Source of the DNA: a virus
Reading direction: 5' to 3' (one strand)
Length of the DNA stretch: 31,828 bases
IMG/VR virus record: IMGVR_UViG_3300009703_000067
Span: 1-31,828 of that record
Part shown: one piece after another, positions 1,610 to 31,639 of the stretch
How the letters are laid out: every line of letters starts with the position of its first letter
How positions within the stretch are numbered: the first letter of the stretch is position 1
The notes under the pieces: model-generated
Databases searched by the model: none
The model's input: the letters and a program-made list of their open reading frames with translations, nothing else
What the model was told of the DNA's origin: nothing
Program-made: the position numbers and the translations under genes

Positions 1610-1820
1610 TTATCGAGATTATCATAATAAAAAAGAATCTTTTATGGAAATTACATTTTTAATATTTTCTTTATTAATATATTATAAAACAAAATATGGT
1701 TTTACATTTGCAATTACAATCCATAATCTATTATTTGAAATTACTATTACTAATTGGAAAAACAGTCCAATTAATAAATTAATAGATAAGTTAAATGCGA
1801 GGGGGGAATCAGCTAAATAG
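1602..1820 (+). CDS. Hypothetical protein at the end of the rightward operon (72 aa)
   Basis: The ATG at 1602 lies within the end of the nuclease gene and follows GGAG at 1591-1594. The protein has a hydrophobic Ile/Leu/Phe segment around residues 16-27 and a second one around 37-50, so it is probably membrane-associated. An internal Met at residue 15 is an alternative start. The stop (TAG 1818-1820) overlaps the 3' end of the convergent giant gene by 12 bases, and a strong terminator follows directly. Function is unknown. Confidence 0.55.
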   Translation: MFSYRDYHNKKESFMEITFLIFSLLIYYKTKYGFTFAITIHNLLFEITITNWKNSPINKLIDKLNARGESAK

Positions 1821-4800
1821 AGTAGCTGGTATAACTGGGGGAGAGTCATCACTTTCTCCCAGTTTTTTTACTTCTTGCGCTGCTTTTATATAAGGTAATC
1901 CTGTCATTTTTTCTATTGAATACATAGGATTTTCTAAAACTCCTTTAGAATCTTTTACAATTCTCCCAAACGGAAACATTGTATAAATATAATAATCACT
2001 CACTCTTGAGTAATCATCTTCTAACATCCCTTTAAATACAGCTGCTGGCATTCTCATAGCTGGAGGCATAACCATCTGCAAAGGAGCAATAGGGGTTGGT
2101 AAAGATCCAAAGAATGCTCTATCTCTTTCAGTTTCATCTCCAAACATCCAATCAGCAGTATCTTGCATCCAATTATAAGGAGCAGGTAAAGAAGACTCAA
2201 ATAAAGAATAGGTAAATAAACTTGCTAATCCTAAAGAGAACATATCAAGAACAGCCATTCTTTTAAATCTTTCAAATTCATGTGTTCCTTCTTGAAATCC
2301 TTTCACTTTAGCTTCTCTAAGGACTTCATTTCTAAATGCGACAGAGTTCCAACCCCACAACTGGAATCTTGACATTACCTTCCCAAGTGCAGTATCAGCA
2401 AAAGCAGGTCTGAAAGGTGAAGAATATAAAAATTGAGTAGATTTAACCCCTTTCTTTGCTAAATTAATCAAGAAAGGATGTTCATAATCTTCAATAGCTC
2501 CTCTAAAATTCTTATGAGCTTGAACATAATGAGCCATAAAAGAATCTACCCTTAACATTCTTTCAGATATTTTCATGAAATAAGCTGCTTTTTGGAATAA
2601 GCTTTCATTAATCTGATGTTTTTCTGCAATACTCATTAGAGAAGAATCTTTTAAATTAGGATTTTGTAATATCTTCTCGACAGCTTCTTCAAAGAATCTT
2701 TTAAAATTAGTACCCTTAAAATGAGGATTTAAAGATGCTTCATGTTGTAAAAAATCTTCTAATACACCATGTTTAATAGCAAATTTATTTAAAGAATCAC
2801 GACTATCTAAAGAATGATCTACATTATTTTTTAAATAATTATAATTCCTACCATCTTTCCAATTAGTTAATCCAGCAGATTGAATAGTTAAAGTAGTACC
2901 ACCCCAAATATTACCTAATCCAGATTTAGGATGAGCTAACAAGGAGGCTGTTTCGTATCTTGCTTCAATATTAGACCAATGCCTAAGCTGATTATGAGTT
3001 ATACCTCTAAGACTTTCAGGTAAATTTTTATCTTGTATATTTAAAGCTTTAGAAATAGAGTTAATTCTATTTTTCACCCTATTATCTGCCCACCAAGCAT
3101 AAGGAGTTCCTTTTAAATTCATACCCTTATCATTATAGATATATTCAGGAATAACATTAGGAAAACCCATAGATCTTTGAACATACAATTGGAAGAATTT
3201 CTCCCATTTGTCTATAACTTCAGGACTCCACTTATTTCTTACATCAAGTTTAAATTTAGATATTTGTGACCTACCAAGCATTGAAGCTACCTGTCTAAAA
3301 TACTGCTCTGTAATTCCCTTCATATATTTATGAAAAGATTGAGAAGATGTATCCCAGCCAGACAAATGTGTTTCTCTTGAATACATAGAACCTACAGTAG
3401 CATTAATACTTTGAAAATCTATAAATTCTTTTTCATTTCGCTTAACCTTCTGTAATTCACTTTCCCACAATTCATTTTCTTCAATATCTCTTAAATGATA
3501 ATCTCCTGTAAGACTATAATGTTTTAATATCATCTTTCTAATCTGTTCAGCTTTTTCTTTCTTAGGCAATCCAGATTCTTGTAATTGCTTTACAGCCTTA
3601 TTTAAAGATTTAAGTGCAAGAGCTTTATCACTTGTTATATGAGGAAAATATCCATCAACAATCTCTCCCATAATGTGATCATTAAAGTTCTTACGCATAT
3701 TCATACGAGTTTCCCATTTAACAGTATGATCATCTATTCTTTGCTCTTTAGCAAGCACTCTAATACCTTCAATACCAAAAGTCATAGGAATAGGCTTACC
3801 TGTAGCAATAGCATGTCTAACATCGTTTAAATAACGATTATAGTCAAATTTAGCATCTACCCCCTCATAATCATCCCTATGGAGACGATATTTCTCCATT
3901 TCTAATCTATCACCCTTTAAGACCTTATACATTTTTTTACCCCATCGAGTATAATGTTGGTCTATCTTTTCAACTAATTCTTCACCTGTAAGACTTTTTC
4001 GAACACTCTTGCCTTCTTCATTCTTAACAAGAATATTAAATTCTCTATTTTTTATATTATATTTACCACCTGTATAGTATTTTTTTACTTCATTCCAATG
4101 ATTTTGATACGCTAATGCCTTATTTTTATCTGTTAAAGTATTAGCATATCTTAGTTCCATTTTCCTGATACCTATCTTTTCAATCATCTCTCCAATAGGA
4201 ATACCACCAACCCTTTCTTCCTGTAAGGAATTTAAAAAAGAAAGTTCTTCATTAAATTTATTCTTTTTATCTTCAAATGCTGCCATAGCATTCTCCATAG
4301 ATCCATGCATAGAAGATGTTAATCCATGCATAGCAGAAGCAGGTCTATATATTTTACCACTATAGACTTCAAGCTTTCGAGGATCTAAGACAGCATCAGC
4401 TAAGAAAAATCCACCTTCTTCATAAAGATCTATATGCCTTCTCATTAAATCTCTATTTATAGCTTCAGGAAACATCATCCAATGCCACTTTCTAATTAAA
4501 GGTCCTTTGTCACCCTTTTTTATAGAATCTGTTAATGCTTGCCACCATGTACCAGTCTTTATAGATTTTAATGACTTATTAAATACTCCTATATCATACA
4601 TATTCGCAGAAGCCATATCCTTATTTGTTAAAAATCTAAATAATCCATTTATATTTCCTGAATTAATTGTAGTAAAATGAGACACATTATCTAACAATTC
4701 GTCAACCATTTTATGTTCTTTTTCTGACAGTTTTCTTGGTCCTCTATCAGTTATTAGATCCTTAACCTTATTTCTCAAATGTTCTGACTCAAACATTTGC

Positions 4801-7800
4801 ACTTCAGTTTTCACACCATCAATATTTATATTTTCTTTAAAACTAACAGCTTCTTGTATTTCCTCACCTAATTCTGCAACAGAATCTCTTAAATCAGCCT
4901 TCTTAAATTGTTTTTTATATTCATTTAAATATTCAGCGATAACTTTATCAGAAACTTCAGGAGAATTAAATCCAACCTTTAAAGAATATGTTCTACTTGC
5001 TTTATCAATCAATCTACTTGAGATTAAATCTAACAATCTTTCTTTTTTACCAGAAGCAATATCTGCAAGATTAATTACTTCCTTAATTCTTTCAAGATCG
5101 CCTCTTCCAAAACCTGTAACCATCATTGAATCAAATAAATCTTTTTGATTTTGACTTAATTCACTCTTAGCTTCATTAATTAACCTATCAGCTTCATTCT
5201 GATTTAATGTATTACTTAATTTTTCACCCTCTTGTATAGCCTTTCCGTCTCTCTTCTCTAATTTTTCAGACATATCAATAAGCTCTTTATACTCTTGTTG
5301 ATTTAATTCTAATTCTTTACTACTATTTAAAGCTTTTATTACATCGCCTAAAGAAGCATCCTTTAATTCAGTTTTACCATCAGCAATCTCTTGCATTTCT
5401 TTATTTGCAATCGACCATAATCTTTTTATCTCTTCAGTCTTTTCATGTATCTCTTTAATCTTCTCAGGACTTTCATTTTTAGCATATTTAGATATAAGCT
5501 TTATACCTATAATATCAGACATATCGTTTATTATAAAATCTCTTGTTTGATTTACAATATTTTCTATCATCCTAATTTTAGTTTCAGGAGTCAATTTTTT
5601 TTTCTTGAACTTACTACTTTTTAATTCTTTAGGAAAAAACTTATCTATTAAATTCCATTTGCCTTCATTATGGATAAATGCTCTCATATTCTCAGGTTTA
5701 TACAATTGTTCCTTTAATACTACATTAATTAAACCTCTCTCCCCTTGCCATTTTACAGGGAAATACCTTTGCATTGGACCTTCTAAATACTCATAGTTTT
5801 CTTTAATATATAAATAATCCTCATACATCTTCTTTAATCCTGCTACATCAACCCTTTCTAATATATCTTCATGCCATTTGATTTTTTCTACAAGTTCAGC
5901 AATACGAGGTAATATTGTATCTCTTGCACCTTCAGATTTATTCTTTACTACCTTTAATTTTTCAAGTATCTCATAATAAGTCCACTTTCTACCTTCTTTA
6001 AAATTCTTACCAAATAAAGCAGAGTTCATTTCATGGTAATCTTGGAATATAGCCTGTTTCTTTTCAAAAGCAGACGCTTCTTTTTTAGCCTTACCATTCT
6101 TTTTCTTAACACCCTTAAATTCATACTTAAAATGAGCATCTAATATCTGTTCTTGATAATGACCAGCTGTTTTTAATCCTGCAAAGTCCATAGGATCTAA
6201 TGGAAATGCAACTGCTGCTCTTGATATTTTCTTTGCATTAGCTAATTCTTCTGGAGTAACTCTTGCTGTAGCCCTTATAGAGCCTGTTTTATTACCATTA
6301 CTATCAAAAGTATCAATCCAATCAGTAGTCCCCTTTACACCATCCTTATTAACCATGTTTGCTATTTCTGAATGAGCTGCAACAGCAACTTGTTTAGCAA
6401 CTACTGCTGGTCCTAAAACTTTACGACCTGTAGCCTGATTATCTGATATTTCTTTTCTTCTTACTGGTGAATATGTAGCAGCCTTATGTTTAAACCTTTT
6501 TTCAACCTCTTCTGGAGTTCCTTCAGTAAACAAATCAACCATTTCTTTATCATCTTTACCCTCTTGAAAGATTAAATTCCCAGAAGAATCCTTAGTATAA
6601 TGTTCTTCTCTTTGAGCATTGTAAACCTCTTTCCATTCTTTAGGCATATTAAAGAATACAAAAGCCTTATCACCATCTAAATCTGCACCACCTAATGCTC
6701 TCATCTTTTCAGGATGTAATACAATCCCATACCCCAATCTGTCAGTAAACCCATGAAATGTACCTAATTGAGCGCCTGAAACAGAATCCATAGGTATTCT
6801 TGCATTTACAGCTTCTAATATCTCTTTATATTTTGTTTCTTCTTTTTCTGATAAATCACCAGACTTATATTTTTCCCATATTTTATCTAATCTTAATTTT
6901 CCATTAGGTAAAAAATCATCATATATTACTTTCTTCTTCCAACCCTTATCTAAAAGAAATAACTTACTATTTGTATTTAATTCAGGATACATCTTCTTTA
7001 TATAAGGATCATAAGGTCGAAGATACGCTGTTCCTGAATTTGGCATCTTAGGTCTTGTAGCTCTTTTTACTACATAATTCCGTAATGCTTTTTGAACATA
7101 ATGTCTAACATTTTTATGATTTATTACAGATATATCACCACCACCAAGACTTAGCATTCTATCAATAGATGAATCAAAAGTAACATTTTCATTCATTATT
7201 TTAGCACCTTCGCTTGAATTTATTTCACCACTTTCAATTAATCCCTCAATATATTCAGTATTTAATTCTAAGATTTTAGAATATGCTTTAGCTGTAAAAT
7301 CTGCATACTTAGGGTCTCTAAACATTTTAAACATTGTTTCAACATTTATATTATCCAAATTCTCAAGTAATTTTTCTTGAATTACAAGAGAATCACCATC
7401 TAATTTTTGAAACTCTGCAATAGCTTTATTCATATCTTCCGTTCCCTTGAAAGATTTTAAAATTAGGGTTGCATGCATATCTCTTACTACTTTAGGAACA
7501 AGTTTTAACATTGCAGGATCACCTGTATATCCAGTCAAAGATGTAAGCATTTGTTTAGGAGTCATTGCATTATCTATCATGTGGTTGTTTGATAAAACTC
7601 CCATCATTACTTTAACATCCTTTAAAGGAACCTGATACATTACATCTTCAATACCCTTTGCAGGAGATATAAGTTTTACATCCCTTTTATATGAAAACAA
7701 TCCTGAATTTTCATTATAAAGATAATCTTTAAATGTAACAAAATCAAGAGCTGCTGAGTCAGCATTATACTCATCAACAAATTGAATACCTTGCTTTATT

Positions 7801-10800
7801 TCTGCTTCAGTAGGATTTCTAATAAAGAAATTATCTTTTCTTATTATCTCTCTATTTAATTTTTTTGACCATTGTGGAGTCGTTACCCAATGTTCAAATT
7901 CAGCTTTAATATCTTCGTGTTCTCTTAATAATTGTTCACTATCAATATTTTCTCTCGCCCAAACTTCATTTTTTGTTTCATATCCTTTTAAACCATTTTC
8001 ATCAAGTTCGTAAATCTTCCTGCCACCACGCTGTTTAGCAGAAGAATCATATATCATATAATGTATATTATTCGCATCCATATATCTTGATAATTCAGGA
8101 CCAGCATCATGCATTGCATACTTACCTAACAATGCTCCTAATTCTTCATGAGGAGACACAATAAATGATTTTTGAAAACCACCATTAACATCATGTCCAC
8201 TTTCTTTATTTTGAGCTTGTAATAATTTAGTGTTTACTAAGATACCACCATCAGTTGCTTCTTCAAATTTATCAGCACCTACAGCCTTACCACGAAAATC
8301 TTTTATTACCTTACTACCAGCTGCATCCTTTACAAATACAACATTGACTCCCGCACCTTTGTCACCCATATCTACAAGATTATCTAACTTATATTTATTT
8401 CTTAAAGTTTCTCTTACAAAATTTCCATCAATAGAATAACCATTAGTAAACCATATCTGCTGTCTTTTATTAAAATCTATAACACCCTTTTTATTACCAA
8501 CATAGTGTCCTCCCATAATAGCATTTAAGCCCTTTTCAAAGACTGTATGTTCAAACCGAGGAATGGTTTTTAAACTAAAGCCATTCAAACTAACATCCCA
8601 TAATGCGTTGGATAAGTACTGTTTTTTCAGCCAACTTTCAACATCAGCTTCTTCCATCCATTTATGTTTCTCTTTATATTCTTCAAGGTCTTCTCTGAAT
8701 GTTTTTTCAACACCTTTAACATTATTTTTCAATGTGTGCCATAACGATTTAGTATTACTCTCGTTTAATATTGGATGATATTTAACATAATAATTTCTTT
8801 CATTATCACCACTACCACCAAAATAATGCATATCTTTCTTATCCATAGCTCGTTCAACTTTAGCCATAGCTTCAATATATTCTTCCTTAGCTTCTATGCC
8901 AGCATCACTTCTCTCAACAGGATTAGTTGCTTGATCTCGTATAATAGATGTTTTTTCTTTTATATATTCTGAAAAAGTAACTTCTTTTGTCCTACCAGTA
9001 GCATCTCTCATGATAATATGGTCTAATATCTGAACAGGTTTTTCATTATAGTCTTCAAATGTCCTTGATAACCCATGCTCTTCAATTATATTATCATAAA
9101 TTTTTTCCATAACAAATCGTGGAGCTAACTGTGTCTTAGAATTACTATTTCGTGTAACAGGATTTTTAGTATCTAATGTTTCTACTGTTCCATCGGTATC
9201 TATAAAAGAAACATGCTGTATTTGAAAATCTTCAATTCTTCTTTTAAATATCTGTCTAAATCCATCATAAACATCTTCAGAAAATTGTTTATTATATTTT
9301 TCAGACAATTCATCTACAAATATCTTAGATGAATTATTTAAATTTTCTGGCTCAATAAGCTCATCCATTCGAATTTCAAGCTCTTTCGTAATATCGATAA
9401 CTTTTCTATTTATCTCACCAGCTGTCTCACCTTCCAAAGTATCTTTTATGTGTTCTCTTACAAATCGTTCAGTTCTTCTTGTTGGTAATATTTTGACAGT
9501 TTCACCAGGATCTATTGATTGTTCTGCTCCAATTTCAGGCTCTACAGGCTTTATTTCTTCTATCGGGACATCAAACCCACTTCTAATCATAAGGTTCTTT
9601 AAAGCACCCTTCCCAGCCTTTGACGGCTTTACTATGCCTGAAATAGAAAAGGAAGACTCTAATGTAGGTTTCTCAACCTTCTTAAACCCACCTCCACCTT
9701 CAGATTTATACCATGTATAACCACCTTTTTTATTATTAGCATCATTAAACACATATACATCTTTACCCATATTTTGAGCTAATTTCATCGTCAAACCATC
9801 AATACTATTTGGCGGTTTATAACCAGAACCTAAAGGAGCAACAACAATAACCTGATCAACATCTCTTACTCTAAAATATTCTTTTCTATATAAGTTATGT
9901 CTTCTAATTTTTTTTTCTAAAGTTCCCTTTGTAGGTACTCTAATACCTATTTCATTCATTGCTTTTTCTACAAAGGTATCTGCAACAGGGAGTTCTGAAT
10001 TACGAAGTTTTACAACTTCACCTATTCCTGTTTCTTTTAATCCTTCTTCTTGTGGAGTTCTAAAGTGTGTCATTCTAAGTCCAACACTATCTGCTATCTT
10101 CCCAAACCATCTTTCCATAGCATTACCACCTGAAACACCTATAAAATCAGGATTATATTTAGCTTGAATTTTAGCTTCTGCTAACTTATTTATATTACCT
10201 ACAGGATCACTACTGTTTAAAAGAGCTTCATATTCTTCTACGCTTACATCCTCACCAAGCAAATCTTTTTGTCTTCTAAAAAATTCATTAAGAGTCTCAA
10301 CGGCTCTATGCTGACTTAATAGTGTATCAGACATCTCCTTAATAACTTCCTTTTCTCTTGGATGTAATCTTTCCCATTCAGGTAATAATTCAGGATCATT
10401 TACATTCTCTTTTAGCATCTTACCAGTGTATTTATCAGCAAGTCTCTTTTCCCAAGGAGTTTCATTAAATCCAAAATAAGCACCAAGAACATAAGAATAT
10501 ATTTGTTCAGGAGTAGTATCTCCTCTTACAGTAGAAGGAATACCTTCATAAAGAGATGCAACTAAAGACTTTAAAGCCTTGTCTCCCATTTCATTGCCTG
10601 AATTAATAGAATTACCAATACCTCTAAATACACCACCAGTAACCCCACCATGCATAAAAGCAGTCATCATATCATCTACACCACCTCTCCATGAAGAAAT
10701 AGCAGATGCAGTACCTAAATGAAATCCACCTTGAACAATATCTTTTACTAACGGCTGAGTTAAGAAGTCAAGGACATCCTTACTTGCTTCTCCACGATAC

Positions 10801-11294
10801 TTATATGCTTTTTCGGTAAGAACTTGGGCAACACTATTCACCTTCTTCTGAACAGCAGATGCACCCAACATTGGAACAGACATTCCCTTTAGTTTTGGGA
10901 TAGCTTGAGATAAAGCTTCAGCACCTTTGATACCTTTAAATACATTTGGTACAAACCCAACAAAACCTGCAAGATGCCCTAAGCTTCTTGCTATACCTTC
11001 ATATTCGTTTTGTGGAGCCTTACCTACTTCAAGGGTAGTAAATCCTTCTACAAACCCCGACCCTGCCTGCTTAACCATACTTGCAAGTCCAAAATCATCT
11101 GCATTAGGGTCTGTATTAAAGTCCATTTTAAAATGATCAGCATGAGTCTTTATATCGTCTAAAAAATCAGGTTTAAACGAATCAGGACTCTGTTTATAAG
11201 ATTCAATTGCATTCCTAATAAATTCTGGTGAATAATTAGGAGTAAATTGATGATTTACTTCAGGTTCAGGCTGTGTTAATAAAGTGTTTGCCAT
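1809..11294 (-). CDS. Giant virion protein with multisubunit-type RNA polymerase active site (3161 aa)
   Basis: A single 3161-codon frame without interruption. Residues 1497-1545 carry the beta-prime double-psi-barrel signature: R1499-I-P1501, L-H1527-P, then A-D-L-D-G-D with aspartates 1538, 1540 and 1542. The R-to-first-D spacing is 39, against 35 in E. coli beta-prime, and the HP-to-D spacing is 11 against 10. Upstream, L-G-K1058-Y-A and S-S-A-K1087 are candidates for the paired lysines of a beta-type barrel. Residues about 475-565 resemble a Rossmann/SLOG-like module (V-I-V-V-A-P, D-V-Y-V-F, S-G-I). The N-terminal 250 residues include Gly-rich hydrophobic helices. Residues 1750-2200 are coiled-coil-like, and a hydrophobic helix lies near 3013-3032. 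The C-terminus resembles large phage polyvalent or ejection proteins. Gene order makes it the last internal virion protein, probably ejected with the DNA to transcribe early genes. No Shine-Dalgarno precedes its ATG. The polymerase call rests on motifs, not on activity. Confidence 0.72.
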   Translation of the reverse strand: MANTLLTQPEPEVNHQFTPNYSPEFIRNAIESYKQSPDSFKPDFLDDIKTHADHFKMDFNTDPNADDFGLASMVKQAGSGFVEGFTTLEVGKAPQNEYEGIARSLGHLAGFVGFVPNVFKGIKGAEALSQAIPKLKGMSVPMLGASAVQKKVNSVAQVLTEKAYKYRGEASKDVLDFLTQPLVKDIVQGGFHLGTASAISSWRGGVDDMMTAFMHGGVTGGVFRGIGNSINSGNEMGDKALKSLVASLYEGIPSTVRGDTTPEQIYSYVLGAYFGFNETPWEKRLADKYTGKMLKENVNDPELLPEWERLHPREKEVIKEMSDTLLSQHRAVETLNEFFRRQKDLLGEDVSVEEYEALLNSSDPVGNINKLAEAKIQAKYNPDFIGVSGGNAMERWFGKIADSVGLRMTHFRTPQEEGLKETGIGEVVKLRNSELPVADTFVEKAMNEIGIRVPTKGTLEKKIRRHNLYRKEYFRVRDVDQVIVVAPLGSGYKPPNSIDGLTMKLAQNMGKDVYVFNDANNKKGGYTWYKSEGGGGFKKVEKPTLESSFSISGIVKPSKAGKGALKNLMIRSGFDVPIEEIKPVEPEIGAEQSIDPGETVKILPTRRTERFVREHIKDTLEGETAGEINRKVIDITKELEIRMDELIEPENLNNSSKIFVDELSEKYNKQFSEDVYDGFRQIFKRRIEDFQIQHVSFIDTDGTVETLDTKNPVTRNSNSKTQLAPRFVMEKIYDNIIEEHGLSRTFEDYNEKPVQILDHIIMRDATGRTKEVTFSEYIKEKTSIIRDQATNPVERSDAGIEAKEEYIEAMAKVERAMDKKDMHYFGGSGDNERNYYVKYHPILNESNTKSLWHTLKNNVKGVEKTFREDLEEYKEKHKWMEEADVESWLKKQYLSNALWDVSLNGFSLKTIPRFEHTVFEKGLNAIMGGHYVGNKKGVIDFNKRQQIWFTNGYSIDGNFVRETLRNKYKLDNLVDMGDKGAGVNVVFVKDAAGSKVIKDFRGKAVGADKFEEATDGGILVNTKLLQAQNKESGHDVNGGFQKSFIVSPHEELGALLGKYAMHDAGPELSRYMDANNIHYMIYDSSAKQRGGRKIYELDENGLKGYETKNEVWARENIDSEQLLREHEDIKAEFEHWVTTPQWSKKLNREIIRKDNFFIRNPTEAEIKQGIQFVDEYNADSAALDFVTFKDYLYNENSGLFSYKRDVKLISPAKGIEDVMYQVPLKDVKVMMGVLSNNHMIDNAMTPKQMLTSLTGYTGDPAMLKLVPKVVRDMHATLILKSFKGTEDMNKAIAEFQKLDGDSLVIQEKLLENLDNINVETMFKMFRDPKYADFTAKAYSKILELNTEYIEGLIESGEINSSEGAKIMNENVTFDSSIDRMLSLGGGDISVINHKNVRHYVQKALRNYVVKRATRPKMPNSGTAYLRPYDPYIKKMYPELNTNSKLFLLDKGWKKKVIYDDFLPNGKLRLDKIWEKYKSGDLSEKEETKYKEILEAVNARIPMDSVSGAQLGTFHGFTDRLGYGIVLHPEKMRALGGADLDGDKAFVFFNMPKEWKEVYNAQREEHYTKDSSGNLIFQEGKDDKEMVDLFTEGTPEEVEKRFKHKAATYSPVRRKEISDNQATGRKVLGPAVVAKQVAVAAHSEIANMVNKDGVKGTTDWIDTFDSNGNKTGSIRATARVTPEELANAKKISRAAVAFPLDPMDFAGLKTAGHYQEQILDAHFKYEFKGVKKKNGKAKKEASAFEKKQAIFQDYHEMNSALFGKNFKEGRKWTYYEILEKLKVVKNKSEGARDTILPRIAELVEKIKWHEDILERVDVAGLKKMYEDYLYIKENYEYLEGPMQRYFPVKWQGERGLINVVLKEQLYKPENMRAFIHNEGKWNLIDKFFPKELKSSKFKKKKLTPETKIRMIENIVNQTRDFIINDMSDIIGIKLISKYAKNESPEKIKEIHEKTEEIKRLWSIANKEMQEIADGKTELKDASLGDVIKALNSSKELELNQQEYKELIDMSEKLEKRDGKAIQEGEKLSNTLNQNEADRLINEAKSELSQNQKDLFDSMMVTGFGRGDLERIKEVINLADIASGKKERLLDLISSRLIDKASRTYSLKVGFNSPEVSDKVIAEYLNEYKKQFKKADLRDSVAELGEEIQEAVSFKENINIDGVKTEVQMFESEHLRNKVKDLITDRGPRKLSEKEHKMVDELLDNVSHFTTINSGNINGLFRFLTNKDMASANMYDIGVFNKSLKSIKTGTWWQALTDSIKKGDKGPLIRKWHWMMFPEAINRDLMRRHIDLYEEGGFFLADAVLDPRKLEVYSGKIYRPASAMHGLTSSMHGSMENAMAAFEDKKNKFNEELSFLNSLQEERVGGIPIGEMIEKIGIRKMELRYANTLTDKNKALAYQNHWNEVKKYYTGGKYNIKNREFNILVKNEEGKSVRKSLTGEELVEKIDQHYTRWGKKMYKVLKGDRLEMEKYRLHRDDYEGVDAKFDYNRYLNDVRHAIATGKPIPMTFGIEGIRVLAKEQRIDDHTVKWETRMNMRKNFNDHIMGEIVDGYFPHITSDKALALKSLNKAVKQLQESGLPKKEKAEQIRKMILKHYSLTGDYHLRDIEENELWESELQKVKRNEKEFIDFQSINATVGSMYSRETHLSGWDTSSQSFHKYMKGITEQYFRQVASMLGRSQISKFKLDVRNKWSPEVIDKWEKFFQLYVQRSMGFPNVIPEYIYNDKGMNLKGTPYAWWADNRVKNRINSISKALNIQDKNLPESLRGITHNQLRHWSNIEARYETASLLAHPKSGLGNIWGGTTLTIQSAGLTNWKDGRNYNYLKNNVDHSLDSRDSLNKFAIKHGVLEDFLQHEASLNPHFKGTNFKRFFEEAVEKILQNPNLKDSSLMSIAEKHQINESLFQKAAYFMKISERMLRVDSFMAHYVQAHKNFRGAIEDYEHPFLINLAKKGVKSTQFLYSSPFRPAFADTALGKVMSRFQLWGWNSVAFRNEVLREAKVKGFQEGTHEFERFKRMAVLDMFSLGLASLFTYSLFESSLPAPYNWMQDTADWMFGDETERDRAFFGSLPTPIAPLQMVMPPAMRMPAAVFKGMLEDDYSRVSDYYIYTMFPFGRIVKDSKGVLENPMYSIEKMTGLPYIKAAQEVKKLGESDDSPPVIPATLFS
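1833..1869 (+). terminator. Rho-independent terminator of the + strand operon
   Basis: A 13-bp stem (1833-1845 with 1852-1864; 11 Watson-Crick pairs and two G-T pairs) closes a six-base loop TCATCA. Seven T residues at 1863-1869 follow at once. Read on the - strand the hairpin has no T run after it, so it should stop only rightward transcription. It sits 13 bases after the last + strand gene and wholly inside the last codons of the convergent 3161-aa gene, and so does double duty as protein-coding sequence. Confidence 0.85.
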
Positions 11295-20677: not shown

Positions 20678-20921
20678 CGTGTATCATATCTAAAATCTTT
20701 TCTAAATCACCCTTAATGTCATCAAGCTTATGATTCATCCCAATAATCATCACTTCTTGAACTGCAATATTAGTCTTTAATTCACTAATTGCATCTGCAT
20801 TTTCTTTTACTTCATCTGTCAATGGGATAACAAACCAACCTAATATTATCGTTACTACAAATGTTATTGCACTCACAATAGGTCGTAAACTTTCTATTGC
20901 ATTATTCACATTCTTATTCAT
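20664..20921 (-). CDS. One-span membrane protein with coiled coil, holin candidate (85 aa)
   Basis: The ATG overlaps the endolysin stop (ATGA, 20918-20921) and is preceded by AAGGAG. Residues 15-34 form a hydrophobic span (I-V-S-A-I-T-F-V-V-T-I-I-L-G-W-F-V-I-P-L). The remainder is a charged helix with heptads (I-S-E-L-K-T-N-I, L-D-D-I-K-G-D-L-E-K-I-L). The layout matches that of the next gene, so the phage has two proteins of the same design in tandem. Direct coupling to the endolysin makes it the better holin candidate. Holin families are too diverse to name one. Confidence 0.55.
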   Translation of the reverse strand: MNKNVNNAIESLRPIVSAITFVVTIILGWFVIPLTDEVKENADAISELKTNIAVQEVMIIGMNHKLDDIKGDLEKILDMIHDGHK

Positions 20922-21397
20922 ACTTCACAACTCCTTTTAAACCAACCAACCCAGTATTTTTCCATCTTAGGTTTCTTCATTACTAATTCAGCATAATACA
21001 TAACTCTATATGCTCTCAATCTAAAATCTTCTAAACTTGATGCAGCTCCTATAGTCATTGTACCTATACGACCATCCATCGCTATTTTATTCGAGTTCTT
21101 GCTATTACAAGCTTCTTGAAGTATCTTAATGGCTCTATAACCACCCATATTAACACACATATCAAAATAAATATGCCTGATATGATTAGAGAGATCCCCA
21201 ACCCTATACTTGTCCCAATAGTCTCGCTTGTATAATTCCTTAGCCCTCTCAACAGTCAAACCCTTTATATCTTCATCAGGATAAGCTTTCTTACTTATCC
21301 CATATTTCGTTTCTCCACCAGGATCTACAGGATCGTTAGTATAACCTCCCTCGTGCATTAAAACCTTCTCTATGATGTCATTAAACTCACTTAACAA
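20918..21397 (-). CDS. Endolysin, GH108-type muramidase (159 aa)
   Basis: The N-terminal motif H-E16-G-G-Y-T-N-D-P-V-D-P-G-G-E-T-K-Y-G-I-S is diagnostic for glycoside hydrolase family 108, with E16 as the expected catalytic acid. The C-terminal part (D-G-R-I-G near residues 109-113, then the L-R-A-Y-R-V-M-Y-Y helix) matches the peptidoglycan-binding module usually joined to it. It would cleave the peptidoglycan glycan backbone at lysis. No signal peptide is visible, so it needs a holin for export. The start is a TTG with AGGAG upstream; no in-frame ATG precedes the catalytic motif by a sensible distance. It is 159 aa, close to the family's usual 160-180. Confidence 0.88.
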   Translation of the reverse strand: MLSEFNDIIEKVLMHEGGYTNDPVDPGGETKYGISKKAYPDEDIKGLTVERAKELYKRDYWDKYRVGDLSNHIRHIYFDMCVNMGGYRAIKILQEACNSKNSNKIAMDGRIGTMTIGAASSLEDFRLRAYRVMYYAELVMKKPKMEKYWVGWFKRSCEV

Positions 21398-21502: not shown

Positions 21503-22174
21503 TCAAAAATTCATCCCCATAAATACTGCGTTGTCTGTAGGTGCTAAAGTATAGTCAATATATGGGTCATTACTTGTACCTATATTATCACTATAATATA
21601 ATCCATTTCTATGTTCTGAATATCCTGTAGGGGCAATATCTTTTAAATCGTAATCATAATTAAGCAAACATATATAAATATTATCATTATCTTCCATATC
21701 AGTTAATGCTTGAGAATTTAAAGTAATGTTATTATATCCTGTTGTACTCCATGTAGATACTGTATCTGAATATTTAGTAACATTGCTTTCATTATCTCCA
21801 CCACCACTTCCATCTGTTGTTGTATCCCATCCTGCTATTGCACTAAAATCTGAATCACTTAAAGTTGCTATGCCCGAAGTTGCTTTTACTGCTATGATAT
21901 CACCTCCACCATTAGTATATCCTCTTACTTTTAATGTTACACTACTCAAAGTAGATGAAATCTCTGATGTATCAAAATATAAGAACGACCTAAAAATAGT
22001 ATAAACATTTCCACCCCCTCTCGCAGAAGTCCTTTCTGCTGCAATCCCATAAAGATGATTACTGCCTGATGAGATAGTAGAAGTACCAGAAGAATTATCT
22101 CTTGCATTACTCCAACTTGACTGCTGATATCTTGAGCTATATCCATCATTTGTATTAGAGGATATAATTGCCAC
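21503..22174 (-). CDS. Jelly-roll (DNRLRE-like) tail surface protein (223 aa)
   Basis: A Ser/Thr/Gly-rich, beta-only protein. The central F-R-S-F-L-Y-F-D-T-S-E-I and L-S-S-V-T-L-K-V-R-G-Y segments (about residues 61-86) follow the pattern of DNRLRE/carbohydrate-binding jelly-roll modules, where a phenylalanine-rich strand precedes a variable-loop strand. W-S-T-T-G-Y-N-N-I-T-L-N supplies the matching later strand. Its position among fibre genes suggests a receptor-binding or fibre-tip component. The start lies one base into the stop region of the methyltransferase gene. The exact family is not certain. Confidence 0.5.
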   Translation of the reverse strand: MAIISSNTNDGYSSRYQQSSWSNARDNSSGTSTISSGSNHLYGIAAERTSARGGGNVYTIFRSFLYFDTSEISSTLSSVTLKVRGYTNGGGDIIAVKATSGIATLSDSDFSAIAGWDTTTDGSGGGDNESNVTKYSDTVSTWSTTGYNNITLNSQALTDMEDNDNIYICLLNYDYDLKDIAPTGYSEHRNGLYYSDNIGTSNDPYIDYTLAPTDNAVFMGMNF

Positions 22175-22722
22175 TATAAGCTCACCTTCGGCATACTATA
22201 AGTATTTTCATTAAAATATTTATTAGCATCAGGGGTTATTGGAATGCTTTCAAATTCTATTGAATTAAATCTATGTTCATTCCTTCTGTCTGTAAAATTA
22301 TTCCAATAAGTTATCTTTGCACCTGGATTAGCGGTTAAAGTTGCAAAATCCTTAAAATCTAACCAATTTTCATCTCCATAAGTATCAATAAATATTCCAT
22401 CATAAGTAGATAAGCCTTCTACACTATTCCAATCTCCTTCTACAATAGTAACATTAGATTTTCCCTCTGCCCATGTTTTTAACTTTTCAATAATCTGAGG
22501 ATGTATTTCAATTATCGTATGAGAATTTACTCCTTGTGCTTGTATATAGTCTGAACAAATACCCATACCAAATCCTATCTCTAAAATATCTCCCTTAGAA
22601 CTACAAATATATTCAGCACTTTTTTCCATTATTTGAATTTCCCAGTCCATCATTACTTCAACACCTGATTCATGTACTATCTTTGTATCTTCGAAAATTA
22701 ATACTTCATCCTTAAAAGCCAT
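22174..22722 (-). CDS. GAMT/RMT2-like class I methyltransferase (182 aa)
   Basis: The SAM-binding motif I is I-L-E-I-G-F-G-M-G (residues 46-54). It is preceded by V-M-M-D-W-E (23-28) and followed by I-I-E-I-H-P (70-75), E-G-D-W (95-98), D-G-I-F-I-D-T-Y-G-D (108-117) and I-T-Y-W-N-N. These match, in order, the distinctive motifs of the guanidinoacetate N-methyltransferase / protein arginine methyltransferase RMT2 group, including V-M-x-x-W-E and D-T-Y. The product probably methylates a guanidino or amide nitrogen, on a small molecule or a protein. It lies directly between a fibre gene and a jelly-roll-like gene with coupled overlaps, so a virion fibre or a host surface component are candidate targets. 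The substrate cannot be read from sequence. Confidence 0.75.
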   Translation of the reverse strand: MAFKDEVLIFEDTKIVHESGVEVMMDWEIQIMEKSAEYICSSKGDILEIGFGMGICSDYIQAQGVNSHTIIEIHPQIIEKLKTWAEGKSNVTIVEGDWNSVEGLSTYDGIFIDTYGDENWLDFKDFATLTANPGAKITYWNNFTDRRNEHRFNSIEFESIPITPDANKYFNENTYSMPKVSL

Positions 22723-24698
22723 TATGCAAAGTCCAAACTTGCAGCACCATAATAGTTACTACCATCAAAATAAAATGAAATTATATCTACTGCATTTGCA
22801 TCTGTTGATAGAGTAGGAGCTGTACCACCTCCAGACCATTTAATAGTTGTATTCCAAGTTATTGTACGACTTCCTGTGCCATCTTGTACTAATTTTAATA
22901 ATAAATTACAAGGATTAGTTGGAGCAGTAAAACTCAAAGTTCCGTTACCTGATCCAAAAGTAAATTCATATTTATTTCCATTTTTCCAATCAATAGTAGT
23001 AACACCACCACTACCAGTAGAACCCTGTTGAGTAAATCCTATAGAATTAGTACCGCAATCTAATTCCCCTCCAAGTGAAGGAGTGGTGTCAGTAGAAAGC
23101 TCAGTTGTATCAGTATAGTTAGCAGAGTCTATGGTGTACGAACTGCTTTGGTCAGTAGTCCAGTCAATATGTTCTTTCGCTACTACATTGTCTAAATTAG
23201 AATGAGACGGTAATGTCCATTCAGGTATCCCAGATGTATTATGTGATAAAAATTTATAATCAACAGATGTCGAAGCTTCAGGGACAGTGTATTCAGTTTT
23301 ACCAAGATTATTTATCGAAGTTTTATCATCTGATGTTTCTAATTTAATAAATCCATTTTTTAGAATCCCAGTCGTACTTATACTTAATGTACCAGTAATT
23401 AAAATATTCCCACCTATAGTAGGTGAATTTGTCCATGATGCAGTAGTACCATTTGTCCAAAGTATAGAATTAGCAGCTCCTAATTCTAATCGAGTAGGAG
23501 TACCAGAAGTACCACCAGCAATTAAATCACCAGTTCCAGTCATAGGATTCGATAATACACTTGAAAATGATAATGTACCACTTCCGTCTGTTATTAAAGC
23601 ATTACCACTTACTCCGTCTGATGAAGGTAAAGTAAAACTAACATTAGCTCCCATATTTGGATCAACAATTAAAGAAACTGTATAAGAATTAGCATTTTCC
23701 ATTAGAAAATTATTTTTAACTTTCAAATTATTAGAAATCGTCACCAATCCTGTATCAGCACCACCATCCCCATCCAACCCAGTACCTATAGTTAAGTTAT
23801 TTGCTGATGATTGTTTTAAATACGACTGCTGCCATTCAGTACCAGAATACTTACCCAAGTTTATCTGACTACCTGAATTTATAGAAAGAGACCCAAAATT
23901 AACATCAGCACTCGTATCAATATCTTGAACAGTTGAAAGTGTTATCTGAGGTCCACTAATACTCCCATCTAATGTATCTAAGATAGTATTACTTAAAGTA
24001 CTTGTTATTTGATTAGCTGTACCTTCAATTTGTAATAAATGAAGATTTTCTAAAAAAGCTAAATCCGTAAAATAATTACCATAATCTACATTAGTATTTA
24101 CAGTATTTTGTGAAGTAGCAACTCCATCAGAATCAAAATTCCACCCCTTTATATTAGCACTATCATCTATAGGTTCACCATCATCATCATAATCAGTAGG
24201 TTCTTCGTTTAATGAGCTAACATCGTTAGTTTGCCATCGCAAAACATAAAAATTATTATCTAATGCTTCTGCTATAAATAATCCATTAAATTTAATTTCA
24301 GACATATTATAATGATATATAGGGAAAAGTTCTCCATCAGAATATCCGTGATTTAAAACATAGTGGTTTGAGGTAACCTTGCAAAAAACAGCATCATATC
24401 TATAGATACTTGTATCTGATTCAACCCAGTCAGGAGCCGTACTTACATTATATAATCCTGTGATATCATCGTTTGTATTCTGCCTGTCACATATATAAGC
24501 AGTCGGATTTATGTTGCCAGATGGAGGAGTATCTCCAATCATTCCTAATCGTGAAAATGGAACATCTCCGCTCAATGAAGGTGATGCCCATGATAATACA
24601 CCTGTTGATGTTGTTTTAAGAAAAGTATTTGACCTTGGACTGATCGCTAAATCAACACCTGTAACTTTTCCTTCAAGTAATACCTTATTCCAAGCCAC
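22722..24698 (-). CDS. Tail fibre protein (658 aa)
   Basis: GTG start; the N-terminus M-A-W-N-K-V-L-L resembles that of the 623-aa fibre (M-A-G-W-K-K-V-L-L), a likely shared virion-attachment end. The body is Ser/Thr/Gly/Asn-rich beta sequence, with stretches such as T-P-S-L-G-G-E-L-D-C and G-T-L-S-I-S-T-T-G. The C-terminus has the familiar fibre-tip pattern L-L-L-K-L-V-Q-D-G-T-G-S-R-T-I-T-W, W-S-G-G-G-T-A-P-T-L-S, and F-Y-F-D-G-S-N-Y-Y-G. It likely forms a homotrimer that recognises the host surface. Upstream AAGG is rather distant, so initiation may be weak. Confidence 0.75.
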   Translation of the reverse strand: MAWNKVLLEGKVTGVDLAISPRSNTFLKTTSTGVLSWASPSLSGDVPFSRLGMIGDTPPSGNINPTAYICDRQNTNDDITGLYNVSTAPDWVESDTSIYRYDAVFCKVTSNHYVLNHGYSDGELFPIYHYNMSEIKFNGLFIAEALDNNFYVLRWQTNDVSSLNEEPTDYDDDGEPIDDSANIKGWNFDSDGVATSQNTVNTNVDYGNYFTDLAFLENLHLLQIEGTANQITSTLSNTILDTLDGSISGPQITLSTVQDIDTSADVNFGSLSINSGSQINLGKYSGTEWQQSYLKQSSANNLTIGTGLDGDGGADTGLVTISNNLKVKNNFLMENANSYTVSLIVDPNMGANVSFTLPSSDGVSGNALITDGSGTLSFSSVLSNPMTGTGDLIAGGTSGTPTRLELGAANSILWTNGTTASWTNSPTIGGNILITGTLSISTTGILKNGFIKLETSDDKTSINNLGKTEYTVPEASTSVDYKFLSHNTSGIPEWTLPSHSNLDNVVAKEHIDWTTDQSSSYTIDSANYTDTTELSTDTTPSLGGELDCGTNSIGFTQQGSTGSGGVTTIDWKNGNKYEFTFGSGNGTLSFTAPTNPCNLLLKLVQDGTGSRTITWNTTIKWSGGGTAPTLSTDANAVDIISFYFDGSNYYGAASLDFA

Positions 24699-25100: not shown

Positions 25101-26972
25101 TTATACATAAAAGTAAAGGTTACTATTATGAGCGGCTATTGCTGTGCCACCTCCCAATGGGGAACCAGGTAAAGTAGCTATTGTATCCATAGAGAAATAT
25201 TCAGCTCCTACAGGTCTCTTATCACCAGAAGCATTTTCTTGATAAGCAACTGTAGATGTAGCATTAGCCTCATCTGTTAGTAGTCCTGTAAACTCAAAGT
25301 ATCCTCCTTCATGACTTATAATCTTACCACCCTTAGATTCACTCCCAGAAGTTCCACCTTGATCGTAACCAAACACAATTGCACCAGTCCCTGATTGAGA
25401 GAAGTTTGCATTATTTGAGGAAGAAGCATTTAGATTAATAAAGCTATCATCTGTAGAAAAGTTAGTTGTTGCTACTATAGTTGCACCACCATCAATAAAG
25501 CATGAATCAGAAAAAACTACCTGGTCCTTTTCAGGTTCACTTTCATAAATTACTTCAGGATCGGCAACAGTAGCTGTAAATGATTGTCTGTTATCATCAT
25601 CATCTAAATCCCAACTTGCATTAGTTGTTGTGATATATATATTATCAGTAGCATCAGCAGCAATAACAAGATCTGAAGTACTTGCAGTATTATTATTAGA
25701 ATCAGAAAAATAAAACGCTGCTACACCACCATCATCTAACGCTAAATACATTAACCCATCATTATTATTTAATGTGATAGATGAACCAGAACTATTAGTA
25801 ACAGTAATGTAATCTGTACCATCAAACGCTACACTTGTACTCATTGAAGACCCAGTTACTGTTAATCCATTATTATCCGTACCAGCAGCATTTATACTTA
25901 ATGCTCCATTACCAAATGTAGCTGAATTACCTGTATGACTTAAATCACCACTTATAACTAAATTTGCTGCATCTAAGTTAGTAAAAGCACCCATATCAAT
26001 AGGTGTTTGAGTATTAGATGTCCAATCATCATTTGTCGTATAACCAATATTTGTCCCAACTATATAACCAGTATTAACACCAGAAGCACCAGAAGCACCA
26101 GTAATATTTGTAGTAGCTAAAGTTGAAACTCCAGTAACACCTAAAGTTCCACCTACAGTAGCATTAGTACCTATAGCAACTGTTCCAGCAGTCATTGTTG
26201 TTGTGTTAGTTCCTGAACTAATAGTAAGTGCATTATCACCAGAAGTATCTATTGTACATGCAGCATTATCAATAGCATTAAAAGATAATATTGTAGCACC
26301 AACACCTAATGGTTGTTCACTATCACCAATACTGTCCGTATATACATTTGCAAATCTACCAGATGATGAACCAAGATTATGCGTAGAATCTGTACCAGGA
26401 ATTATATTACCACCAGTTTTAATACCACCATCATGTACACTTTGCGCTGTAAAAGTAGCAATACCAGTAACACCTAAAGTTCCACCAACACTTGCTACAG
26501 TAGTTACAGATAAACTCTCTAAAGTAGCAAGACCAGAAGTATTAAATGTTCCAGTAACTGTAGCTGAATTTGAAGCAGCTGAAATAGGTGAGTCCATTAC
26601 AGAATAACTGAAACCATCGCTACCAGAAAGGGTTGTAGCCATCGGTACTACACCATCTGTTAATTCAGTAGCTGTTCCATTGGCTATCTCACCAACAATT
26701 ACATTACTTGGTGCGCCTTTACCCCAACCTACAGTACCCGAAGTATCAACTCTAAGAACTGCTGGTTCTGTCGTACCATTTACTCCTAAAGCAGTCAATA
26801 AATCATCTATATTTGCTTGTACAGTACGCTTTGAATTAGCCGCTGCTTCATGATCTATTGCTACTGGGGATAAATCCTCCCAAGTATGCTGCGTACCTAA
26901 TATTCCATCATTAGCACTTTGATCTGCTGTTACTCCACTATTCGTTAATAATACTTTTTTCCAACCTGCCAT
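25101..26972 (-). CDS. Tail fibre / surface protein with repeats (623 aa)
   Basis: The ATG follows AGGAG with normal spacing. The N-terminus is M-A-G-W-K-K-V-L-L-T-N-S-G-V. The body is a long Thr/Ser/Gly/Ala/Asn-rich beta-helix-like sequence with repeated V-G-G-T-L-G-V-T-G blocks about 111 residues apart and an L-G-S-S-S-G-R-F-A-N-V-Y motif often seen before fibre shafts. A short acidic run (D-L-D-D-D-D-N) and a C-terminal N-S-N-L-Y-F-Y-V end follow. It probably trimerises and reads host surface features. No enzymatic signature such as a depolymerase is seen. Confidence 0.7.
   Translation of the reverse strand: MAGWKKVLLTNSGVTADQSANDGILGTQHTWEDLSPVAIDHEAAANSKRTVQANIDDLLTALGVNGTTEPAVLRVDTSGTVGWGKGAPSNVIVGEIANGTATELTDGVVPMATTLSGSDGFSYSVMDSPISAASNSATVTGTFNTSGLATLESLSVTTVASVGGTLGVTGIATFTAQSVHDGGIKTGGNIIPGTDSTHNLGSSSGRFANVYTDSIGDSEQPLGVGATILSFNAIDNAACTIDTSGDNALTISSGTNTTTMTAGTVAIGTNATVGGTLGVTGVSTLATTNITGASGASGVNTGYIVGTNIGYTTNDDWTSNTQTPIDMGAFTNLDAANLVISGDLSHTGNSATFGNGALSINAAGTDNNGLTVTGSSMSTSVAFDGTDYITVTNSSGSSITLNNNDGLMYLALDDGGVAAFYFSDSNNNTASTSDLVIAADATDNIYITTTNASWDLDDDDNRQSFTATVADPEVIYESEPEKDQVVFSDSCFIDGGATIVATTNFSTDDSFINLNASSSNNANFSQSGTGAIVFGYDQGGTSGSESKGGKIISHEGGYFEFTGLLTDEANATSTVAYQENASGDKRPVGAEYFSMDTIATLPGSPLGGGTAIAAHNSNLYFYV
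26131..26153 (-). repeat. In-frame direct repeat in fibre gene, copy 1
   Basis: This 23-base segment is identical to 26464-26486 and encodes the same G-G-T-L-G-V-T-G block. The offset is 333 bases (111 codons), so both copies are in the same reading frame. It marks an internal duplication in the fibre shaft. Confidence 0.75.
26464..26486 (-). repeat. In-frame direct repeat in fibre gene, copy 2
   Basis: This is the second copy of the 23-base segment at 26131-26153. The flanking codons diverge on both sides, so the identity is local. Such repeats allow shaft lengthening or shortening by recombination. Confidence 0.75.
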
Positions 26973-30289: not shown

Positions 30290-31639
30290 TTAACTAAATT
30301 TTAATAATGCGTGAGTCTCAGGCAAACTAATCTCTAAACCTGCTTCAGTTGTAATCATATCTTTTCTTCCATCAACATCATTATCTTGAACATTTGTTTT
30401 GATAAATGTGTCTCTGTTTAATCCATTACCAACTAAAGGTCTATATGCTAAGTTCTTCATATCAAGAGCAATGCAATAATCTTCATACATTCCTCTAAAT
30501 AAAGGCTCTGCAACAAAATGTAAGTTACCAAAGATAGTATCTACTTTAGTCACATTATGCCCAAACTTACCAGGAATATTAGCCACATCAAGTTTATATT
30601 GAGATGAACCAACAGTATTATTTATAAATCCACTATTACCTAATTTATTCAAGAATGAAATTACTTTTCGTGAAGCCAATACTAATTTATTACCACTATT
30701 AGCTGATTCATGAGAAAAGAAATCTTCCATTGCTTCTAAGAAAGCATCATAACCTGAACTTGCATAAGTAAAGTTATATATTTTACCATTCTTTTCAGTA
30801 TAAGGAACAATACCATGAGTGTATCGTAATGGAGCACCAGAAGCCGTTTCATCAGCACTACCTATTCCGAATAAGAAGTTTTGCTCCATATCCATCTTAT
30901 GTTCCATTAACTTTTCAGTCCAGTTACGATTAAACTCATTTTTAATACCTCTATACTCTGTAGCAATAGATGTATTTGAAAATGTTTTAATAGCTGTTTT
31001 AAAGATTTGACAATAACCTTCTCTGTCATATAAAGCATCTTCCCAACCATCAGGAGCTTTACTTCCTTCAGCCCATGCACTACCAATAACTTGACCTTCT
31101 GCACCTGACGCAAAATCAGTATCAGTATTTGTATCTGAAAGAACTGTTGTACCAGCAGCTGTAATAGTTGTATATCCTGCGGTTGTTTCAGTTACTGCTG
31201 TATGGTCTATTGATGCATTTGAAGCAAGTTTTATAGTTGCAACATTACCATCGGTCCCTCTTATAGATATAATTTGACCAGGAAGTATAAAAGTACAAGG
31301 TTCATCTAAAGTAGTTGTTTTACCGAACTTATCATAAGCACAATCAAGAACTAAATCAGCTGGAACTGCACTACCTTTTGTATAAGTTGCATCTGTAACA
31401 GCTGTAGAAACTTTAAAATTTCGTCTTTGCCATTGATGTCTTTGTTCCATGAACTTAAATACTGGATCTGGAGTGGACTTTTTTGCCACTTTATTTAAAT
31501 ATACAAAGAAGGGTGATTGTTGAGGAGCTAATTCTGCAATTCTGCTCCCAAAATCTAAGGTTCTTCTTGTATCATTAATTGAAACACCTGTTGGGGTATT
31601 CCCTGTATCATTTGAATAAGCTGTTGTGTAATCAGCCAT
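30290..31639 (-). CDS. Major capsid protein (449 aa)
   Basis: The ATG follows AGGAG with a seven-base spacer. The N-terminus has R-T-L-D-F-G-S-R-I-A-E-L, then Q-Q-S-P-F-F-V-Y-L-N-K-V and H-Q-W-Q-R-R-N-F. This is the pattern of HK97-fold capsid proteins of the DUF5309/SU10 type, in which an N-terminal arm carrying a T/S-P-h-h motif leads to a W-bearing strand. A helical spine-like section (Y-D-A-F-L-E-A-M-E-D-F-F) and a C-terminal sheet with V-D-T-I-F-G-N-L-H-F-V follow. Size and position after a probable scaffold or portal end agree. The exact family needs a profile comparison. Confidence 0.7.
   Translation of the reverse strand: MADYTTAYSNDTGNTPTGVSINDTRRTLDFGSRIAELAPQQSPFFVYLNKVAKKSTPDPVFKFMEQRHQWQRRNFKVSTAVTDATYTKGSAVPADLVLDCAYDKFGKTTTLDEPCTFILPGQIISIRGTDGNVATIKLASNASIDHTAVTETTAGYTTITAAGTTVLSDTNTDTDFASGAEGQVIGSAWAEGSKAPDGWEDALYDREGYCQIFKTAIKTFSNTSIATEYRGIKNEFNRNWTEKLMEHKMDMEQNFLFGIGSADETASGAPLRYTHGIVPYTEKNGKIYNFTYASSGYDAFLEAMEDFFSHESANSGNKLVLASRKVISFLNKLGNSGFINNTVGSSQYKLDVANIPGKFGHNVTKVDTIFGNLHFVAEPLFRGMYEDYCIALDMKNLAYRPLVGNGLNRDTFIKTNVQDNDVDGRKDMITTEAGLEISLPETHALLKFS

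Follow-up and report, generated by a model that had tools for sequence, protein, structure and literature searches.

A guanidinoacetate methyltransferase-like enzyme is encoded between tail fiber and predicted adhesin genes in an overlapping cassette of marine phages

Introduction

What does a methyltransferase that resembles an enzyme of creatine synthesis do among the tail fiber genes of a virus? The question is raised by a gene at positions 22174–22722, on the minus strand, of the window, i.e. the whole stretch of DNA analyzed here, a virus record of 31.8 kb. The initial annotation, made from the letters of the DNA, related the product of this gene by its motifs to guanidinoacetate methyltransferase (GAMT) and the arginine δ-N-methyltransferase RMT2 and could name no precedent for such an enzyme. 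The latter claim does not hold, because a viral GAMT, read as creatine metabolism, already features both in a survey of auxiliary metabolic genes (AMGs) and in the name of one viral protein record (“putative guanidinoacetate methyltransferase”). In that 2024 ocean survey, GAMT had the highest enrichment of any step in viruses relative to cells (85.4-fold), was assigned to nine virus populations, all of them from the Arctic, and was proposed to serve creatine synthesis (PMC11360552). The GAMT of the survey and the named record likely belong to the family studied here.

Results

The open reading frame proved to be complete, with an ATG start and 182 codons for amino acids, and we add the minus-strand orientation, which had not been given before. 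All of the motifs that had been named are present, namely VMMDWE (residues 23–28), ILEIGFGMG (residues 46–54), IIEIHP (residues 70–75), DTY (residues 113–115), and ITYWN (residues 137–141). Neither the frame nor its motifs are attributable to chance, because at least 521 viral stretches in IMG/VR encode relatives of this methyltransferase (MTase) and the gene is under purifying selection (ω of 0.03–0.28 in the closest pairs, with a median of 0.23 over 426 pairs).

A sequence search of the PDB with the single MTase protein returned GAMT at the top (E = 5.6e-13; next family, 0.01), as did a profile built from 14 MTase relatives (GAMT, 2.8e-20; KsgA next, 2.8e-5). The AlphaFold2 model of the MTase (pLDDT 89.6, pTM 0.88) was matched to GAMT over the whole chain by Foldseek (5.4e-15), and a VIA comparison gave a Z score of 22.9 and an rmsd of 2.1 over 181 residues at 29% identity, the next fold having a Z score of 15.9. 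Thus, the comparison of a predicted structure with GAMT that had been suggested as a check identified GAMT as the best fold match, and the window MTase has the class I SAM fold with GAMT as its closest similarity. We also considered a DNA or rRNA methyltransferase and rejected this identity, as KsgA and Erm models cover the SAM core alone, weakly, and far behind GAMT; the rRNA methyltransferase matches of the window protein are to Pfam RrnaAD (6.2e-6) and NCBIfam ksgA (27 bits; cut-off, 171). No PHROGs family matched the window MTase.

The residues expected to bind SAM and substrate are intact. SAM-binding motif I, LEIGFGMG (residues 47–54; 22561–22584, minus strand), has Glu-48, Gly-50, Gly-52, and Gly-54 in 97 of 97 family sequences, and no variation was seen at the ribose acid Glu-72 or at the SAM-loop glycines. 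Glu-28 (22639–22641, minus strand) and Asp-113 (22384–22386, minus strand) align with Glu-46 and Asp-135 of human GAMT, the two acids by which the guanidino group is bound in the GAMT structures. Glu-28 is found in all viral members and Asp-113 in all complete viral members; both are kept wherever the position is present in viral relatives, and the sequences that deviate comprise a pair of distant bacterial proteins and a single fragment at a contig end. Among all complete viral relatives examined, therefore, no mutated SAM or guanidino-binding site was seen.

The MTase-bearing contigs are mostly fragments. Beyond IMG/VR, INPHARED yielded one MTase relative, in a 634-kb megaphage (L041), and no relative of the adhesin described below. 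In cellular genome contigs, a single-protein search found no close MTase relatives, and a profile search found seven relatives, all distant; two of these (L093 and L096) do not have the catalytic acids and branch at a great distance in the tree, and one of the distant cellular relatives was clearly identified as GAMT when searched against the PDB. GAMT-like genes occurred in 3 of 299 bacterial genomes, a sample from one phylum. In a tree of the MTases, human GAMT and three bacterial GAMT-like sequences group together (support 93/96) and the phage sequences fall outside them, a placement that is tentative given several long branches and a poorly resolved phage backbone. Overall, the PDB searches, the fold match, and the tree strongly bear out the suggested affinity to GAMT, and the phage proteins do not fall among ordinary small SAM enzymes that lack it.

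The MTase is the middle gene of a conserved, overlapping three-gene cassette in the order tail fiber, MTase, and small adhesin. The initial annotation had described translational coupling of the MTase to a fiber on one side and to a jelly-roll-like protein on the other, and this coupling is real and far more general than could be seen from one stretch of DNA. In the window, the upstream gene encodes a tail fiber of 658 amino acids (22722–24698, minus strand; phrog_9017 tail fiber, 3.9e-12, residues 523–652), and its stop shares position 22722 with the start of the MTase gene, the stop of which in turn shares position 22174 with the GTG start of the adhesin gene (223 amino acids; 21503–22174, minus strand). 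The next gene downstream, which lies outside the cassette, encodes an endolysin (glycosyl hydrolase 108; 20918–21397, minus strand; PF05838, 2.8e-25). In 80 of 95 loci, the gene directly after the MTase belongs to a single adhesin family; in 77 of 95, the gene before it belongs to one fiber cluster, joined by single linkage; and one-base overlaps recur 70 times at each of the two junctions. The cassette stands in different phage backbones with varying flanking genes: for example, it follows terminase and portal genes in L084 and lies after a tail fiber gene and before ribonucleotide reductase in L075. Further, scans driven by the adhesin recruited 11 extra contigs with the MTase directly upstream that were outside the MTase-driven set (L105, L106, L108, L112, L114, L117, L118, L124/L125, L132, L134, and L157), together with several contigs without the MTase.

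Comparison by blastp of the fibers upstream of the MTase, and clustering, identified the C-terminal domain of the window fiber (residues 548–658; 22725–23057, minus strand) as the fiber part common to most cassettes of the window's group. The last 130 residues of the fibers form two main, non-homologous clusters with 52 and 28 members, plus a few other types. Because the fiber C termini are non-homologous while the MTase and adhesin families stay the same, the adhesin is the constant partner of the MTase in most phages. It cannot be the sole partner, because in L034–L036, L039, L037/L038, and the megaphage L041 the MTase lies beside a fiber-like gene without such an adhesin; since these members still adjoin a fiber-like gene, the fiber stays a candidate target. 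These arrangements bear on the idea that the MTase modifies a non-guanidino group of the fiber or is an assembly factor for the fiber or adhesin, with methylation secondary. The MTase gene directly follows the fiber C-terminal domain, where other phages keep a fiber chaperone, and where the adhesin is missing, the preceding gene is still fiber-like by its tail sequence (L035, L036, L037, and L041). However, invariance of the catalytic residues would be unnecessary for a pure chaperone, and the fiber ends that precede the MTase are of unrelated types, so that we consider such a role unlikely.

In L034 (9866–10918), L035 (9128–10159), L036 (9842–10918), and L039 (1759–2811), we noted that the MTase is fused to a C-terminal stretch with weak similarity to pretoxin-HINT (in L034, 0.0057, which does not reach the cut-off), and that these fused MTases stand between two Ser/Thr-rich repeat proteins. 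The C termini of the proteins that precede the MTase in L035 and L036 read GGGGCFRGCI and GGGGGGCSRGCQ. Elsewhere in the window, a second fiber (25101–26972, minus strand) starts much like the first (MAGWKKVLL and MAWNKVLL, respectively), which perhaps reflects a common mode of virion attachment. The major capsid protein (30290–31639, minus strand; phrog_1328) has 24–30% identity with its counterparts in Microcystis, Roseobacter, Caulobacter, and Vibrio phages, and a protein of 3161 amino acids (1809–11294, minus strand) was matched by neither Pfam nor PHROGs at E = 0.01.

The downstream neighbor, which had been called jelly-roll-like, is a β-sandwich in its predicted model (pLDDT 89.2), and its type can now be given more closely as that of carbohydrate-binding modules. 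With this model, Foldseek matched the alginate-binding module 7vbo (6.0e-6), and VIA gave Z scores of 15.9 for the chondroitin-binding 8wab and 13.6 for 7vbo. At the level of sequence, Pfam CBM96 matches were weak and found in 5 of 15 adhesin members (best E = 7.6e-4), the window member being unmatched and the adhesin of L110 scoring 14.3, which is below the curated cut-off of 26; a profile search of PDB chains by sequence gave no match, and no pattern suitable for scanning could be derived from a profile of 15 divergent adhesins. The predicted model has the CBM96-type β-sandwich fold, and the fold matches to alginate- and chondroitin-binding modules therefore suggest that the neighbor is most likely a glycan-binding adhesin.

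The C-terminal tail of the window adhesin (21506–21541, minus strand), NAVFMGMNF, is missing from other proteins of these loci. We considered a C-terminal tag common to other virion proteins and rejected it, as the additional matches amounted to the adhesin of L032 itself and one that is due to chance. The adhesin tail tracks the fiber type, with GxNF accompanying the first fiber cluster and ANIxKV the second, without exception among full-length pairs. This correspondence may reflect docking to the cognate fiber or shared descent alone.

A candidate methylation site in the adhesin is the arginine of R52-G-G-G (22010–22021, minus strand), which is placed in a predicted hairpin turn between strands 39–50 and 56–68. 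R52-G is nearly invariant, and about 80 of the 82 adhesins linked to the MTase have Arg-Gly in this loop. The two exceptions, L157 and L032, have the MTase without Arg-Gly and count against the adhesin loop as the target. Adhesins without the MTase have GRSG (L110 and L111), SRGA (L122), GRGS (L123), or SKGG (L136) at the loop, and the distant adhesins L137 and L138, also without the MTase, have no loop motif. Because the related L122 and L123 keep Arg-Gly without the MTase, this comparison, which covers few lineages and is confounded by descent, is suggestive in its fit to Arg-52 as the target, and Arg-52 may serve another role.

L110 and L111, the clearest case in this comparison, show the junction without the enzyme. 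In both, the fiber gene directly abuts the adhesin gene, with stop and start in a one-base overlap, and the fiber end is of the L084 kind; an alignment search of the adhesin loci found no MTase in these two contigs, and the same alignment matched other virus records. We note that, between fiber and adhesin, the MTase is thus cleanly absent (L111, 2730–4729; L110, 82–2081) or present (L084, 8538–11277), and the one-base overlap is kept in both states, as if the gene were an exchangeable cassette.

Discussion

Many marine phages carry a GAMT-like enzyme between the genes for a tail fiber and a putative sugar-binding adhesin. If the enzyme were a true GAMT, it would be an AMG for creatine production during infection, which is what the published AMG proposal with its strong virus enrichment suggests (PMC11360552) and what the nearest solved relative would lead one to expect. 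We consider this very doubtful. In nearly all phages seen, the gene lies inside an overlapping cassette of virion genes; GAMT-like genes were rare in the bacterial sample; and the phage clade stands apart from bacterial and human GAMT. Further, a search for the amidinotransferase partner (PF02274, the ADI/amidinotransferase family) was negative in all 50 records of these phages and positive in 3 controls, with the limits that many records are fragments and that a host could supply the amidinotransferase. (A phosphagen kinase search was empty, but no control gave a match either.) The cassette location, together with the absence of the ADI/amidinotransferase family from the 50 records, favors a role other than creatine synthesis, and the location itself suggests the phage's own receptor-binding proteins as the target.

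A protein substrate outside the virion also has to be weighed. RMT2 is a eukaryotic type IV protein arginine methyltransferase with a ribosomal protein as its substrate, and its core motifs (MM.WE and IE.HP or HP) look closer to the window MTase than those of GAMT do, which gives a lead. The phage enzyme could by analogy modify a host surface or translation protein and merely be carried with the fiber genes. This appears quite unlikely, because its linkage to virion genes is tight and repeated across backbones, for which a host-directed enzyme would have no need. The arginine product of RMT2 is methylated at δ-N (PMC4860837).

The evidence is most economically explained by an enzyme that acts on a protein of its own cassette, and we put the chance that its substrate is an arginine in the adhesin or the fiber tip at about even. 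A small-molecule substrate is conceivable, because the closest solved enzyme methylates a small molecule. More specifically, and more tentatively, we propose a dedicated phage arginine methyltransferase, related to GAMT and RMT2, that would mark a loop of its own glycan-binding adhesin and so modify the receptor-binding tip; this is a possibility to which we give somewhat less than even weight. The MTase, the tail fiber, and the small carbohydrate-binding adhesin would be made together through translational coupling, and the enzyme, as a SAM-dependent N-methyltransferase of the guanidino type, would methylate an arginine of the receptor-binding proteins as the virion is assembled. The arginine most likely to be modified is the one in the adhesin's conserved Arg-Gly hairpin loop (Arg-52 in the window). 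By altering polarity and hydrogen bonding in a loop of a glycan-binding fold, the methyl mark would tune receptor binding or assembly of the adhesin. Marks of the proposed type do exist in virions, because arginine and lysine methylation was detected by mass spectrometry on structural proteins, including a putative tail fiber, of marine Cellulophaga phages; these phages encode no known methyltransferase, and the report, of 2026, was the first of its kind (PMC13288928). If our proposal is correct, the cassette would supply a phage-encoded enzyme for the methylation of structural proteins and tie that methylation to host recognition.

The window MTase shares with GAMT (human 3ORH; rat 1XCJ and 1KHH) its fold along the whole chain, its SAM motif, and the pair of acids that bind the guanidino group in GAMT; it differs in length (182 amino acids versus about 236 in GAMT), in its place within a cassette of virion genes, and in the lack of a detected ADI/amidinotransferase-family partner. 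The adhesin resembles CBM96-type modules (7VBO for alginate and 8WAB for chondroitin) in predicted fold and in weak Pfam matches but, unlike them, is a single-domain phage protein with a C-terminal tail of its own. The viral GAMT of the ocean survey shares with the family described here its viral and marine origin and its annotation as K00542, whereas it was taken to serve creatine synthesis, without the cassette context described here (PMC11360552). If the two are the same family, the viral GAMT would be a gene for virion modification instead of creatine metabolism.
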